DNA of 20,262 nucleotides, taken from a virus. Shown piece after piece: positions 970-6,761 of this stretch. The stretch lies in IMG/VR virus record IMGVR_UViG_3300047386_000083, positions 1 to 20,262 of that record, one strand, 5' to 3'. The notes under the pieces were generated by a model. That model was given only the letters and a program-made list of their open reading frames with translations. It made no database searches and had not been told where the DNA came from. The position numbers and the translations under genes were made by a program. Within the stretch, counting starts at the first letter, position 1. Each line of letters opens with the position of its first letter.

Positions 970-1197
970 TTATTTATTCTTTTCTATCCACTTTTCTTGT
1001 TCGTTTCTTAGATAGTCAATTTCTCTCTTTAAATAATCTAAAGCTTTCTCTAAGTCTTTTATTTCATCTTCTTTCTTTCCCGCTCTAACTAAATATTTTA
1101 TGCAGTTACCTCGATTGAAGTTCAAGCCGTAATCTCGAATGAAATCTATAACGTCATAGCCTTTTCCGTTTTCATAGTGTAAATAAGTTGCTCTCAT
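970..1197 (-). CDS. DUF3310 family protein
   Basis: The 75-residue protein carries the DUF3310 pattern: an N-terminal HYxxGxGYDVIDFI (residues 7-20), then NCIKYLVRAGKK (31-42), then an acidic linker and DLEKALDYLKREIDYL (48-63). Members are very common in phages. The family is sometimes called nucleotide kinase-like because of similarity to T7 gene 1.7, which affects sensitivity to dideoxythymidine. No classical P-loop is present here. A role in nucleotide metabolism or host takeover is therefore family-based inference. The ATG overlaps the stop of the preceding gene as ATGA (1194-1197). Confidence 0.8.
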   Translation of the reverse strand: MRATYLHYENGKGYDVIDFIRDYGLNFNRGNCIKYLVRAGKKEDEIKDLEKALDYLKREIDYLRNEQEKWIEKNK

Positions 1198-1652
1198 AGT
1201 TTTACTTTTAATTTGTCTTTTATTTGATTGTGTGTTTCTTGCTGAAAGAATAGTTTTAAATGTTCATCACTTGTAATTCTATACATAGCTTTTATGTATT
1301 CACTTTTATTCTTTCTATCTTTTACTTCTTTTATATTTTTTATTTCATATACCATAGTGATTCCGTCTATCGTTTCACAGGTTTCGGTATTTACATTTGA
1401 TCGTACAATGAAGCATTGTATTTTTGTGTTATCTGTAAGCTTAACATCTACGTAATTAGCAAGAGTTCTTACAGTATTTATTGAAGTTAAATCCCCAGTC
1501 TTTTTGTGATCTATAAAAAATGTATTGTAATTGAATTTTGTTAGTACACAATCGATGTCTATTATTGAGCGTTTTAAATCTGTTAGTTCACTTATTAAAT
1601 AGTTGAACTCATTGTTGTGGTAAGTTGGTTTAAATGCTTTTCTTGTTTTCAT
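1194..1652 (-). CDS. Hypothetical protein, possible PD-(D/E)XK-type nuclease
   Basis: This 152-residue protein has alternating strands and helices. An IDIDCVL segment (D32, D34) followed by NTFFIDHKKTGD (D48, K50) recalls the D...(D/E)xK arrangement of PD-(D/E)XK nucleases such as the VRR or restriction-like phage enzymes. The middle acidic residue is Asp rather than the usual Glu, and the spacing is short, so this is a weak structural inference. The rest (a YVDVKLTDNTKIQCFIV strand pair and a basic C-terminus) gives no further clue. The start has a clear A/C-rich leader (AACAAAAACACAAGAAACA). It overlaps both neighbours as ATGA, following the glycosyltransferase gene. Confidence 0.6.
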   Translation of the reverse strand: MKTRKAFKPTYHNNEFNYLISELTDLKRSIIDIDCVLTKFNYNTFFIDHKKTGDLTSINTVRTLANYVDVKLTDNTKIQCFIVRSNVNTETCETIDGITMVYEIKNIKEVKDRKNKSEYIKAMYRITSDEHLKLFFQQETHNQIKDKLKVKL

Positions 1653-2509
1653 TGTTTCTTGTGTTTTTGTTTAATAATCATCGGCGTAGTATTTCGCCAC
1701 TTAATAGAGTGATGAAGTCTTGGCTTTGTAAAACCCATCATTCCCACTTTTACGCTAGATGGGTGCATTAATACACTCATAAAAGATTTTATATAAGTTC
1801 CAGAGAGTTGATATATGTCGGTCATTCCAGAGCTTTGACTTTGAGTGGCTTTTTGTTCAAGACCTATATAAGGCAATGTAAGAAATAAAGCACCTCTTGA
1901 AGCTAAACTTGTATAAGTATTAACGTCTTCATTTATAGAACCTACAAATTGAAACTCTCTATCGGTCGAACATATAAAAGAGTTCATACACTTTCTTGAA
2001 TTGTTTATGTAGTTTGATATTAAACCACAACCAGCACCACCAATAAAGTCACCACCTTGTGCAAACGCTATACTTTTAGCATCTATCGTTTTATAAAAAT
2101 TTAATAGAAGATCAAAATAGAAATCAAGATTCTTAACGCTTCCTTTTGTTGTATATTTGTGATCTACGTATCTATATCTAAAACTTGTATAGTCATCGTC
2201 TAATTGAATAAAGTATTTTATATTTAACTCTTTAGCTATTTTAAAACAAACATTTCTAGCGTGAACAATTACTTTTCTATTGTCAAAATTATTACCTTCA
2301 TCAATAGAATCAGCCATAGATTTTTTATCAAAAATATATACGTTTTTATGACCGAAGTTTTCTATATACTTATTTATACTTTTGTCTTCATTATCTATAA
2401 CAATAATAATTCTGCCAGTATATCCACTTCTTTTTAAAGTCTTATAAGTTATCACATTATCAGATCGACCGTGTGATAGTATAAAAGCAACGAAGTCTTT
2501 ATTCTCCAT
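1649..2509 (-). CDS. TET-associated-type glycosyltransferase (TAGT-like)
   Basis: The 286-residue protein matches what I know of the TET/JBP-associated glycosyltransferases of phages. It begins with FILSHGRSDNVITYKTL (9-25), which carries the SHGR nucleotide-sugar site, then a GRIIIVIDNEDK strand (32-43). An HARN motif (83-86) precedes the DxD-type metal site IQLDDDYTSF (101-110, with D104-D106). A Gly-rich FIGGAGCGLI segment follows. Family members are predicted to add sugars to hydroxymethylated or otherwise modified pyrimidines in phage DNA, protecting it from nucleases. No base hydroxylase or hydroxymethylase is visible in this window, so the acceptor is unknown, and a glycoprotein acceptor is possible. 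It is co-encoded with the 130-residue gene upstream (11-base overlap), which may be a partner. Length is normal for the family, and no frameshift is seen. Confidence 0.75.
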   Translation of the reverse strand: MENKDFVAFILSHGRSDNVITYKTLKRSGYTGRIIIVIDNEDKSINKYIENFGHKNVYIFDKKSMADSIDEGNNFDNRKVIVHARNVCFKIAKELNIKYFIQLDDDYTSFRYRYVDHKYTTKGSVKNLDFYFDLLLNFYKTIDAKSIAFAQGGDFIGGAGCGLISNYINNSRKCMNSFICSTDREFQFVGSINEDVNTYTSLASRGALFLTLPYIGLEQKATQSQSSGMTDIYQLSGTYIKSFMSVLMHPSSVKVGMMGFTKPRLHHSIKWRNTTPMIIKQKHKKQ

Positions 2510-2891
2510 ACTCTTGTAAGTATTGATTCTTTATTTCTTCAGAAAGTTTAACATAACCTAATTGAATAGCTTTCTCAAAGTCTATTATAACAAGAGCTGA
2601 TTTCTCCATTAACATCTGCATCTCTTTACTCGAATGTGCATAATAATCAGCTATCTTTTCATAATGAAAGACATTGTGTCTTCTAGCAGCGTCTATTAAA
2701 AAAGATTTTTCTTCAAGCTCTATGTTTGAACTTTCAATCTCTCTTATAAGTCTATGTGTTTTATACTTATCGCATAGTTCAAATATATGTGGTTTCTTGT
2801 TTTTAGGCTCGTATATCGGAGCTTCTACTTTTTTAGTGTACTTGTTATCGTCTTCAGATAATTCGCCGCTAAACATATTTATTTGTTTCAT
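2499..2891 (-). CDS. Hypothetical helical protein co-encoded with the glycosyltransferase
   Basis: This 130-residue protein has a disordered N-terminus (1-35) and a helical core starting HIFELCDKYKTHRLIREIE. The core ends with an ALVIIDFEKAIQLGYVKLSEE segment. There are no catalytic or metal motifs that I recognise. The overlap of 11 bases with the glycosyltransferase suggests translational coupling and a shared job, for example as an accessory or substrate-recognition subunit; this is inference from position only. The start is well supported by a very A-rich leader (TAAAACAAAAACAAG directly before ATG), the strongest form of the early-gene leader. Confidence 0.68.
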   Translation of the reverse strand: MKQINMFSGELSEDDNKYTKKVEAPIYEPKNKKPHIFELCDKYKTHRLIREIESSNIELEEKSFLIDAARRHNVFHYEKIADYYAHSSKEMQMLMEKSALVIIDFEKAIQLGYVKLSEEIKNQYLQEYGE

Positions 2892-5912: not shown

Positions 5913-6761
5913 TTATAAGCCACAATAACCACTGTCGCATTCATTAAAGTCGTCATCAAATAGTTCTGTTTGTTTAAAACTGTTTTTTATTTGTTTATAG
6001 TTAATTCCGTTTTTAAAGGTTCTAACATTATAACCTGTTTCCTGTTCTGCTTCTATAAACCAATTAAATTTATTTGGGTGCTTATCACTCATTAATTTAA
6101 GCAACACTTCGTTTCTATGAAAACAACCTACGCAATTATTCATATAAGCAAACCTAACATTTTTATCTTTCCAGTATTTTTCTACTTGGTCTTTATATAT
6201 ATTATCTTTAATTAAAGGGAATACAGGTTTTTGCCATTCTATATCCGCCCATTTGTTTTGTGTTTTTCTTTTACCTACAATAGTTTTCATTTCTAAAAAA
6301 CCATTTTTATTTGTTTTATTTAACATTGTTTTTGCTCTGCTTTGTTCGTTTGCTCTAAACCCTATACGCATTTTTACAACTTGATTTATTTCTTTATGCC
6401 ACCAATTAAAAATAGGTTTTAGTTTCATTTCGGTTGTGCAAAATCTTATTGTTGCATTTGGTAAATATTTTTTACCATTTCTATCAATAACCTTGTCAAA
6501 AGTCTTACCAGTTACCCAATCAATTTTTGAACCTATAAACTGCTCTAAATCTAACATTGTATATATAATAGTATCTTCTTCTAAAGTGCCTATAAATTCA
6601 GTACCTAACCTATCACTAACTTGCTGTCTTATTTTAGCATCTGGGAACATACATTTTTTATCGTCTGTTCTAACTAAAGAAAACACATTATAATCAGCTG
6701 GGTAATTAGCTGCTATATAACTTGATGTCTTACCACCGCTTAAACTGTTTACTGTTTTCAT
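5913..6761 (-). CDS. PP-loop PAPS reductase/DndC-like ATP-pyrophosphatase-fold protein
   Basis: The N-terminal NSLSGGKTSSYIA (5-17) is the PP-loop that binds ATP or PAPS. C108 lies in RFCTTEMKLKP (106-116), which is the conserved region seen in phage PAPS-reductase-like proteins. A CVGCF pair (C210, C213) and C-terminal C275 and C280 provide enough cysteines for an iron-sulfur cluster of the DndC/TtcA type. Family members adenylate a substrate and transfer sulfur; known roles are sulfate assimilation, tRNA thiolation and DNA phosphorothioation. No dndB, D or E gene is nearby, so the substrate is unknown. The start has a clear leader (AAAACAACAACAAA) and overlaps the ATPase gene's end as ATGA (6758-6761). 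Confidence 0.75.
   Translation of the reverse strand: MKTVNSLSGGKTSSYIAANYPADYNVFSLVRTDDKKCMFPDAKIRQQVSDRLGTEFIGTLEEDTIIYTMLDLEQFIGSKIDWVTGKTFDKVIDRNGKKYLPNATIRFCTTEMKLKPIFNWWHKEINQVVKMRIGFRANEQSRAKTMLNKTNKNGFLEMKTIVGKRKTQNKWADIEWQKPVFPLIKDNIYKDQVEKYWKDKNVRFAYMNNCVGCFHRNEVLLKLMSDKHPNKFNWFIEAEQETGYNVRTFKNGINYKQIKNSFKQTELFDDDFNECDSGYCGL

Follow-up and report, generated by a model that had tools for sequence, protein, structure and literature searches.

The window analysed here, a virus record of 20,262 bases from a tailed phage, encodes a TAGT-family glycosyltransferase together with a small partner protein. The two genes form an obligate and conserved pair that occurs in bacterial and archaeal viruses, is linked to the terminase and is mostly found without a recognizable base-hydroxylation pathway. 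We lean slightly toward reading the pair as a two-subunit DNA glycosyltransferase that would be fastened to DNA clamps and would glycosylate phage DNA, probably as a shield from host nucleases. DNA modification, proposed in an earlier note on this sequence, stays the best reading of the locus, on different grounds: the obligate partner bears a clamp-type motif or else a ParB domain, and ParB-DNA methyltransferases share the genomic slot of the pair.

Organization of the locus

Both ORFs and their 11-nt overlap are as described in the earlier note, which had left unstated that they lie on the minus strand, the partner first and the transferase second (Table 1). Plus-strand frames across both are riddled with stops, and strong purifying selection acts on the two genes, with dN/dS of about 0.04 to 0.07 against their closest relatives. 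The next gene downstream has a counterpart of the same length after the transferase of L040, a 95%-identical relative. The window stops short of its own terminase; in L040, TerL follows the transferase at a distance of 1.9 kb. The host probably belongs to the Bacteroidota, given that a Bacteroidetes MAG contig encodes a partner with 71% identity. Elsewhere on the minus strand, the window encodes a PAPS-reductase-like protein (5913-6761; phrog_424, E=2.2e-20) and an HTH protein resembling DnaA domain IV (2-331; PF08299, E=5e-8). A gene similar in length to the latter precedes TerL in L040, and the HTH gene may stand in the position of a terminase small subunit. No structured RNA or tRNA was found within the window.

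Table 1. Coordinates of the cassette and its features in the window
Feature	Position	Strand	Evidence
TAGT-family glycosyltransferase, 286 aa, GT-A fold predicted	1649..2509	-	PF20691, E=5.6e-33; AF2; VIA-align
SHGR, residues 12-15	2465..2476	-	R15 invariant, G14 at least 90% in 51 diverse homologues
HARN, residues 83-86	2252..2263	-	N86 invariant, A84 and R85 at least 90% in 51 homologues
LDDDY, residues 103-107, DxD-type metal/nucleotide-sugar site of GT-A enzymes	2189..2203	-	D105, D106 and Y107 invariant, D104 at least 90% in 51 homologues
NEDV, residues 193-196, candidate catalytic ED motif	1922..1933	-	N193 and D195 invariant, E194 at least 90% in 51 homologues
Short-form obligate partner, 130 aa	2499..2891	-	C-terminal part of phrog_620; immediately precedes the transferase in almost all of the 159 loci (of 161 distinct ones) with both genes
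Conserved helical partner domain, residues 17-118, common to short and long forms	2538..2843	-	42-sequence alignment, 18 invariant columns
QINMF, beta-clamp-binding-like motif, partner residues 3-7 of MKQINMF	2871..2885	-	Pattern counts, column conservation
Gene overlap, 11 nt	2499..2509	-	Sequence; ORFs overlap in 150 of 159 loci
Downstream neighbour gene, 152 aa, no family at useful E in Pfam or PHROG	1194..1652	-	Sits between cassette and terminase region

A TAGT-family transferase

The TAGT identity proposed for the larger product was borne out by its PF20691 match, which scored 115 bits against a cut-off of 27.5 over profile positions 4-202 of 205, and by its similarity to phrog_842 (E=1.4e-65). 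The AF2 model (pLDDT 84.8, pTM 0.86) aligned by VIA-align with GalNAc-T2 (Z 13.5, rmsd 4.4 over 222 residues) and GnT-I (Z 13.2, rmsd 3.5 over 197 residues). The top Foldseek match was 9jn3, a glycosyltransferase crystallized with the nucleoside Ara-A, and TM-scores to any single enzyme were low, about 0.5. A profile of the transferase found no relatives of solved structure by sequence, the best matches (E about 0.4) being unrelated proteins. The SHGR, HARN and LDDDY motifs already reported for this protein are all present, and a further NEDV motif is a candidate for catalysis by analogy with GT2-type enzymes. Across the 51 diverse homologues, the DDD motif, the NED region and several His/Arg positions show little or no variation, and the transferase is therefore expected to be active as an enzyme.

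An obligate partner in two forms

The earlier note had found no recognized family for the smaller protein, a view that the present analysis overturns. Residues 24-118 match positions 148-215 of phrog_620, annotated as a 'ParB-like partition protein' (E=5e-7), and the partner is therefore the C-terminal domain of that family; this match and the obligate conserved domain rule out a family-less orphan. The helical domain is common to two kinds of partners. Long partners, of about 240-340 aa, carry a ParB domain at the N-terminus followed by the conserved helical domain, and short partners, of about 130 aa, consist of the helical domain alone and account for 120 of the 159 loci, the window among them. 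The window's partner has no Pfam match, and the ParB N-terminal domain PF02195 is absent both from it and from the window record. Its absence from the record and from a near-identical relative argues that a ParB protein supplied in trans by a separate gene is not a general solution. PF02195 was found in 13 of 42 records; the named phages have it fused, as the long form, and some viral contigs encode it separately.

The AF2 model of the partner is moderate (pLDDT 73) and confident solely at about residues 31-100. Foldseek and VIA-align returned PDB matches at chance level, no sequence relatives were found among solved structures, and a BFVD search with the model gave two good matches only, both to homologues (62% and 43% identical).

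Loci were gathered from both sides, with partner queries against viral contigs and genomes, with a transferase query and from annotated phages, so the pairing is no effect of one query; the viral sets of this survey comprise the nearest relatives only. Among the collected loci, both genes were present in 159 of 161 distinct ones. LL-Ku and Ld17, two Lactobacillus phages closely related to phage c5, are the exceptions; in them, one deletion took the partner plus an N-terminal part of the transferase. Pairwise distances of partner and transferase correlate (Mantel r=0.70, with 0 of 1000 permutations as high), and the two are an obligate, co-inherited pair. In L018, L021, L028 and L188, 259-873 bp separate the two ORFs, perhaps owing to inserted genes. 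The pair ranges from phages of Bacteroidota, Bacillota and Pseudomonadota to an archaeal virus, HHTV-2; its carriers include phages of Lactobacillus, Nocardia, Vibrio, E. coli/Salmonella and Porphyromonas, as well as bacterial-genome contigs assigned to Bacteroidota, Bacillota, Desulfovibrionaceae, Kiritimatiellota and others. No partner match occurred in 72,556 plasmids.

A clamp-binding-like motif in place of the ParB domain

Short partners typically start with MKQxNLFGxE. The bacterial beta-clamp-binding consensus is QL(S/D)LF, and the N-terminal motif of the short forms fits it. The pattern Q..[LMIF][FL] precedes the conserved core in 108 of 114 unique short forms (99 with a stricter pattern), against a single one of 37 long forms (none with the stricter pattern); of 1706 other ORFs from the same loci, 16 have it within the first 12 residues (1 with the stricter pattern). 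Q3, L/M6 and F7 hardly vary in the alignment, unlike position 4 and most of positions 9-16; judged by its conservation, this N-terminus has the profile of a short linear motif. QINMF of the window lies in the variable, low-confidence N-terminus of the AF2 model, a probably disordered stretch in which a QxxLF-type peptide would be accessible. We infer that the short partner should bind the replicative sliding clamp through this motif.

ParB domain and clamp-type motif are nearly mutually exclusive among partners. The transferase tree implies about 10-11 changes between short and long forms, of which at least five are forced by well-supported branches if L215, a truncated contig, is counted. Among supported independent pairs, an average of 2.7 out of 4 have the motif with the short form, and the opposite case hardly ever arises (sign test p=0.25); so small a number of pairs cannot be significant by itself. 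Against a clamp-binding role stand five diverged short forms that lack the motif, as well as the moderate partner model with no fold match.

DnaN-like clamp genes adjoin the pair or lie near it in the short-form bacterial loci L189, L190, L194 and L195. Their matches range from weak to moderate (E 4e-7 to 7e-4, some under the Pfam cut-off, with one marginal PDB match). The tally of downstream genes showed no DnaN-like gene beyond these four loci, and none beside long-form loci among the downstream genes scanned. Three of the four lack a perfect motif, which might be expected beside a DnaN-like gene of the phage's own if that clamp has diverged. A family A DNA polymerase is encoded upstream in L190 and L195.

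A slot shared with ParB-DNA methyltransferases

Phage phi jlb1 has a long partner whose ParB domain shares 55-65% identity with the N-terminal domain of phage 'DNA modification methylases', which combine ParB_N (PF02195) with N6_N4_Mtase (PF01555) in Pfam. Such ParB-methyltransferase fusions lie immediately or shortly upstream of the terminase in the Streptococcus phages vb_Spy_7 and Javan492. The TAGT pair is likewise upstream of the terminase in phi jlb1, c5, NTR1, Porphyromonas phage 005 and E. coli phage 683R6. Many prophages have the same order, and among the gene families counted downstream of the pair, those of terminases come first. Linkage is looser in HHTV-2, where the pair lies eight genes upstream of TerL, and a 191-kb Vibrio phage carries it among replication-type genes. 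The adaptor-TAGT pair thus occupies a slot otherwise held by ParB-DNA methyltransferases. In Javan381 (L238:4001-5068), a ParB-type protein with a C-terminal DUF4417 has a similar place upstream of the terminase, and the slot may host several kinds of ParB-headed effectors.

Which acceptor?

As the earlier note had remarked, no base-modifying hydroxylase or hydroxymethylase is visible in the window, and a lack of hydroxymethylase and methylase genes extends to whole relatives. With positive controls that gave signals, the thymidylate-synthase/hydroxymethylase family was detected in 1 of 42 pair-bearing records (the 191-kb Vibrio phage), C5-methylase in 1 of 42 and N6/N4 methylase in 4 of 42; the first two are absent from the window record, which is partial. 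The genomes of HHTV-2, c5, jlb1 and NTR1 have neither thymidylate-synthase-type nor C5-methylase genes. TET_JBP (PF12851) matched 0 of 42 records, in a search whose control gave no signal and with many records possibly fragments. The near absence of the hydroxymethylase and C5-methylase families means that most of these records do not encode the customary path to a hydroxylated base, and a canonical hmC/TET pathway within the phage is not supported; the name 'TET-associated' should not be read as implying a TET enzyme in this phage.

Nucleotide sugars appear to be in real use around the pair. L195:6230-10301 holds three tandem TAGT genes with a partner, followed by UDP-galactopyranose mutase, which suggests galactofuranose as the donor at that locus; tandem TAGTs also occur in L196, L204, L205 and L209. 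Single loci have a GDP-mannose-dehydratase-like enzyme or a cytidylyltransferase-like protein near the pair, and these neighbours, like the mutase, support such use.

The missing source of an acceptor hydroxyl counts against DNA as the acceptor, since canonical DNA has no obvious base hydroxyl. The family name alone does not settle the question either: GREB1 is classed with the TAGTs (PMC6163654), and human GREB1 is reported to glycosylate a protein in work cited in PMC12645433, which also speaks against DNA. The main rival is accordingly a protein acceptor, such as the terminase, a capsid protein or a host DNA-bound factor, with the partner as substrate-recognition subunit and the clamp or ParB contact merely positioning the enzyme near replication or packaging. 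The scarcity of base-hydroxylation genes (hydroxymethylase and C5-methylase, each 1 of 42) and the linkage of the pair to the terminase speak for it, as do the GREB1 precedent and best fold matches to protein glycosyltransferases such as GalNAc-T2, although the GT-A fold is a common one. We nevertheless hold it unlikely, given that pair partners and DNA methyltransferases in the same slot have the ParB domain in common, and that archaeal and bacterial viruses with differing head genes carry the same pair, so that no single virion target is evident.

As in T-even phages, the acceptor could instead be hydroxymethylated or otherwise premodified bases, supplied by the host or by an unrecognized enzyme of the phage. 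PF20691 does include the T6 enzyme, encoded beside a dCMP hydroxymethylase, yet the T6 and window proteins have no pairwise similarity, and the genomes of the four viruses named above lack thymidylate-synthase-type and C5-methylase genes. Ten loci from gut prophages and a fecal phage (L204, L205, L207, L209, L211, L212, L213, L120, L202 and L218) encode a conserved radical SAM/SPASM enzyme close downstream of the TAGT, mostly as the next gene. This enzyme is a possible third cassette component that could activate a base without oxygen, but most loci have no third gene of this kind, and we regard premodified bases as a rather doubtful substrate. An altogether different target (RNA, the nucleotide pool or a host glycan) or an antidefence role independent of DNA modification appears improbable: the cassette is dispensable, as its loss from LL-Ku and Ld17 attests, and the top structural match was crystallized with a nucleoside, but Foldseek TM-scores to any one enzyme are low, and both the swap between ParB and the clamp-type motif and the methyltransferase slot suggest a DNA target.

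Proposed mechanism and significance

Under the DNA-glycosyltransferase reading that we prefer, the two genes would specify one enzyme, composed of a GT-A catalytic subunit and an adaptor subunit. The helical domain of the adaptor most likely holds the transferase, as their obligate pairing suggests, and its N-terminus would tie the complex to DNA. Long-form relatives would use their ParB domain for this; in the window phage, with its short form, QINMF would dock in the replicative sliding clamp's peptide groove. Taking its sugar from a nucleotide-sugar donor, the complex would then glycosylate phage DNA once it is replicated and ahead of packaging, a step to which the methyltransferase slot and the tethering point. 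Glycosylated DNA would probably be shielded from host nucleases, which makes an antirestriction role plausible. A more far-reaching version is that the pair represents a new class of hypermodification, in which a two-subunit enzyme sugars canonical DNA without prior hydroxylation, is loaded by a ParB clamp or, through repeated evolutionary replacement, by a peptide binding the host's replicative sliding clamp, and marks DNA as it is made, before packaging. We put this forward tentatively, as an attractive idea that has more chance of failing than of holding.

In any case, the TAGT group of the window does not stand alone. With it comes an obligate adaptor in which either a ParB domain or a clamp-binding-like peptide apparently forms the end that would tether it to DNA. 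Should DNA be the acceptor, the pair would amount to a widespread and unrecognized DNA modification in bacterial and archaeal viruses.

Comparison with known systems

The long-form cassette is present at 80% or more in 863 of 5,426 complete E. coli genomes, within Rac-family prophages, which makes the target of the TAGT testable in laboratory strains. There it is annotated as ynaK plus a 'GREB1-related' or hypothetical protein, just before the terminase. ynaK corresponds to the ParB end of the long-form partner, and intact relatives carry the ParB-partner and the TAGT ahead of the terminase, whereas the K-12-type Rac keeps a mere 87-codon ynaK remnant overlapping ydaY, and the window has the short form. 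Since K-12-type Rac lost all but the start of ynaK, K-12 provides a natural null background. Some strains, 1579 among them, have ynaK annotated as a pseudogene beside an intact, full-length TAGT, so not every copy of the locus is intact. These Rac observations come from L227:9001-10904 and L228:6001-6604.

The T6 beta-glucosyl-HMC-alpha-glucosyltransferase, the characterized relative, is a TAGT that attaches a second glucose to already glucosylated hmC (PMC13390438, PMC13216743). It belongs to PF20691 (E=1e-8), has the DDD motif and, according to PMC13216743, adopts a GT-A fold, as predicted for the window enzyme. Unlike the window clade, which has a partner and no hydroxymethylase, it adjoins a dCMP hydroxymethylase and has no partner gene. 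The latter study, of 2026, left unexplained a 'solitary' TAGT, with no alpha- or beta-GT, in 288 of 753 phage genomes (PMC13216743). By gene content the window fits this group, but its TAGT has an obligate partner that goes unmentioned there, the term ParB having 0 occurrences in the text. Our literature search, of partial coverage, found no paper linking ParB with TAGT. Stenotrophomonas phage DLP3 (PMC7326821) was considered as a parallel for its restriction-resistant DNA, ParB domains and glycosyltransferase, and was set aside since that transferase is RfaB-like.

Phage ParB-DNA methyltransferase fusions resemble the pair in their ParB domain and their place before the terminase. They differ in that the effector of the pair is a TAGT, present as a second subunit, and that the window's partner lost the ParB domain or never had it. 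The T4 alpha-glucosyltransferase offers another likeness and a precedent for the clamp reading, as a phage DNA glucosyltransferase that co-purifies with, and is bound to, the sliding clamp gp45, an interaction that is not the main cause of the alpha:beta ratio (PMC13216743); for the window enzyme, clamp binding is predicted from the motif. The T4 enzyme has a GT-B fold, binds the clamp by itself and acts on hmC, whereas the window enzyme is a predicted GT-A transferase whose separate adaptor would reach the clamp through a QxxLF peptide of bacterial-clamp type.
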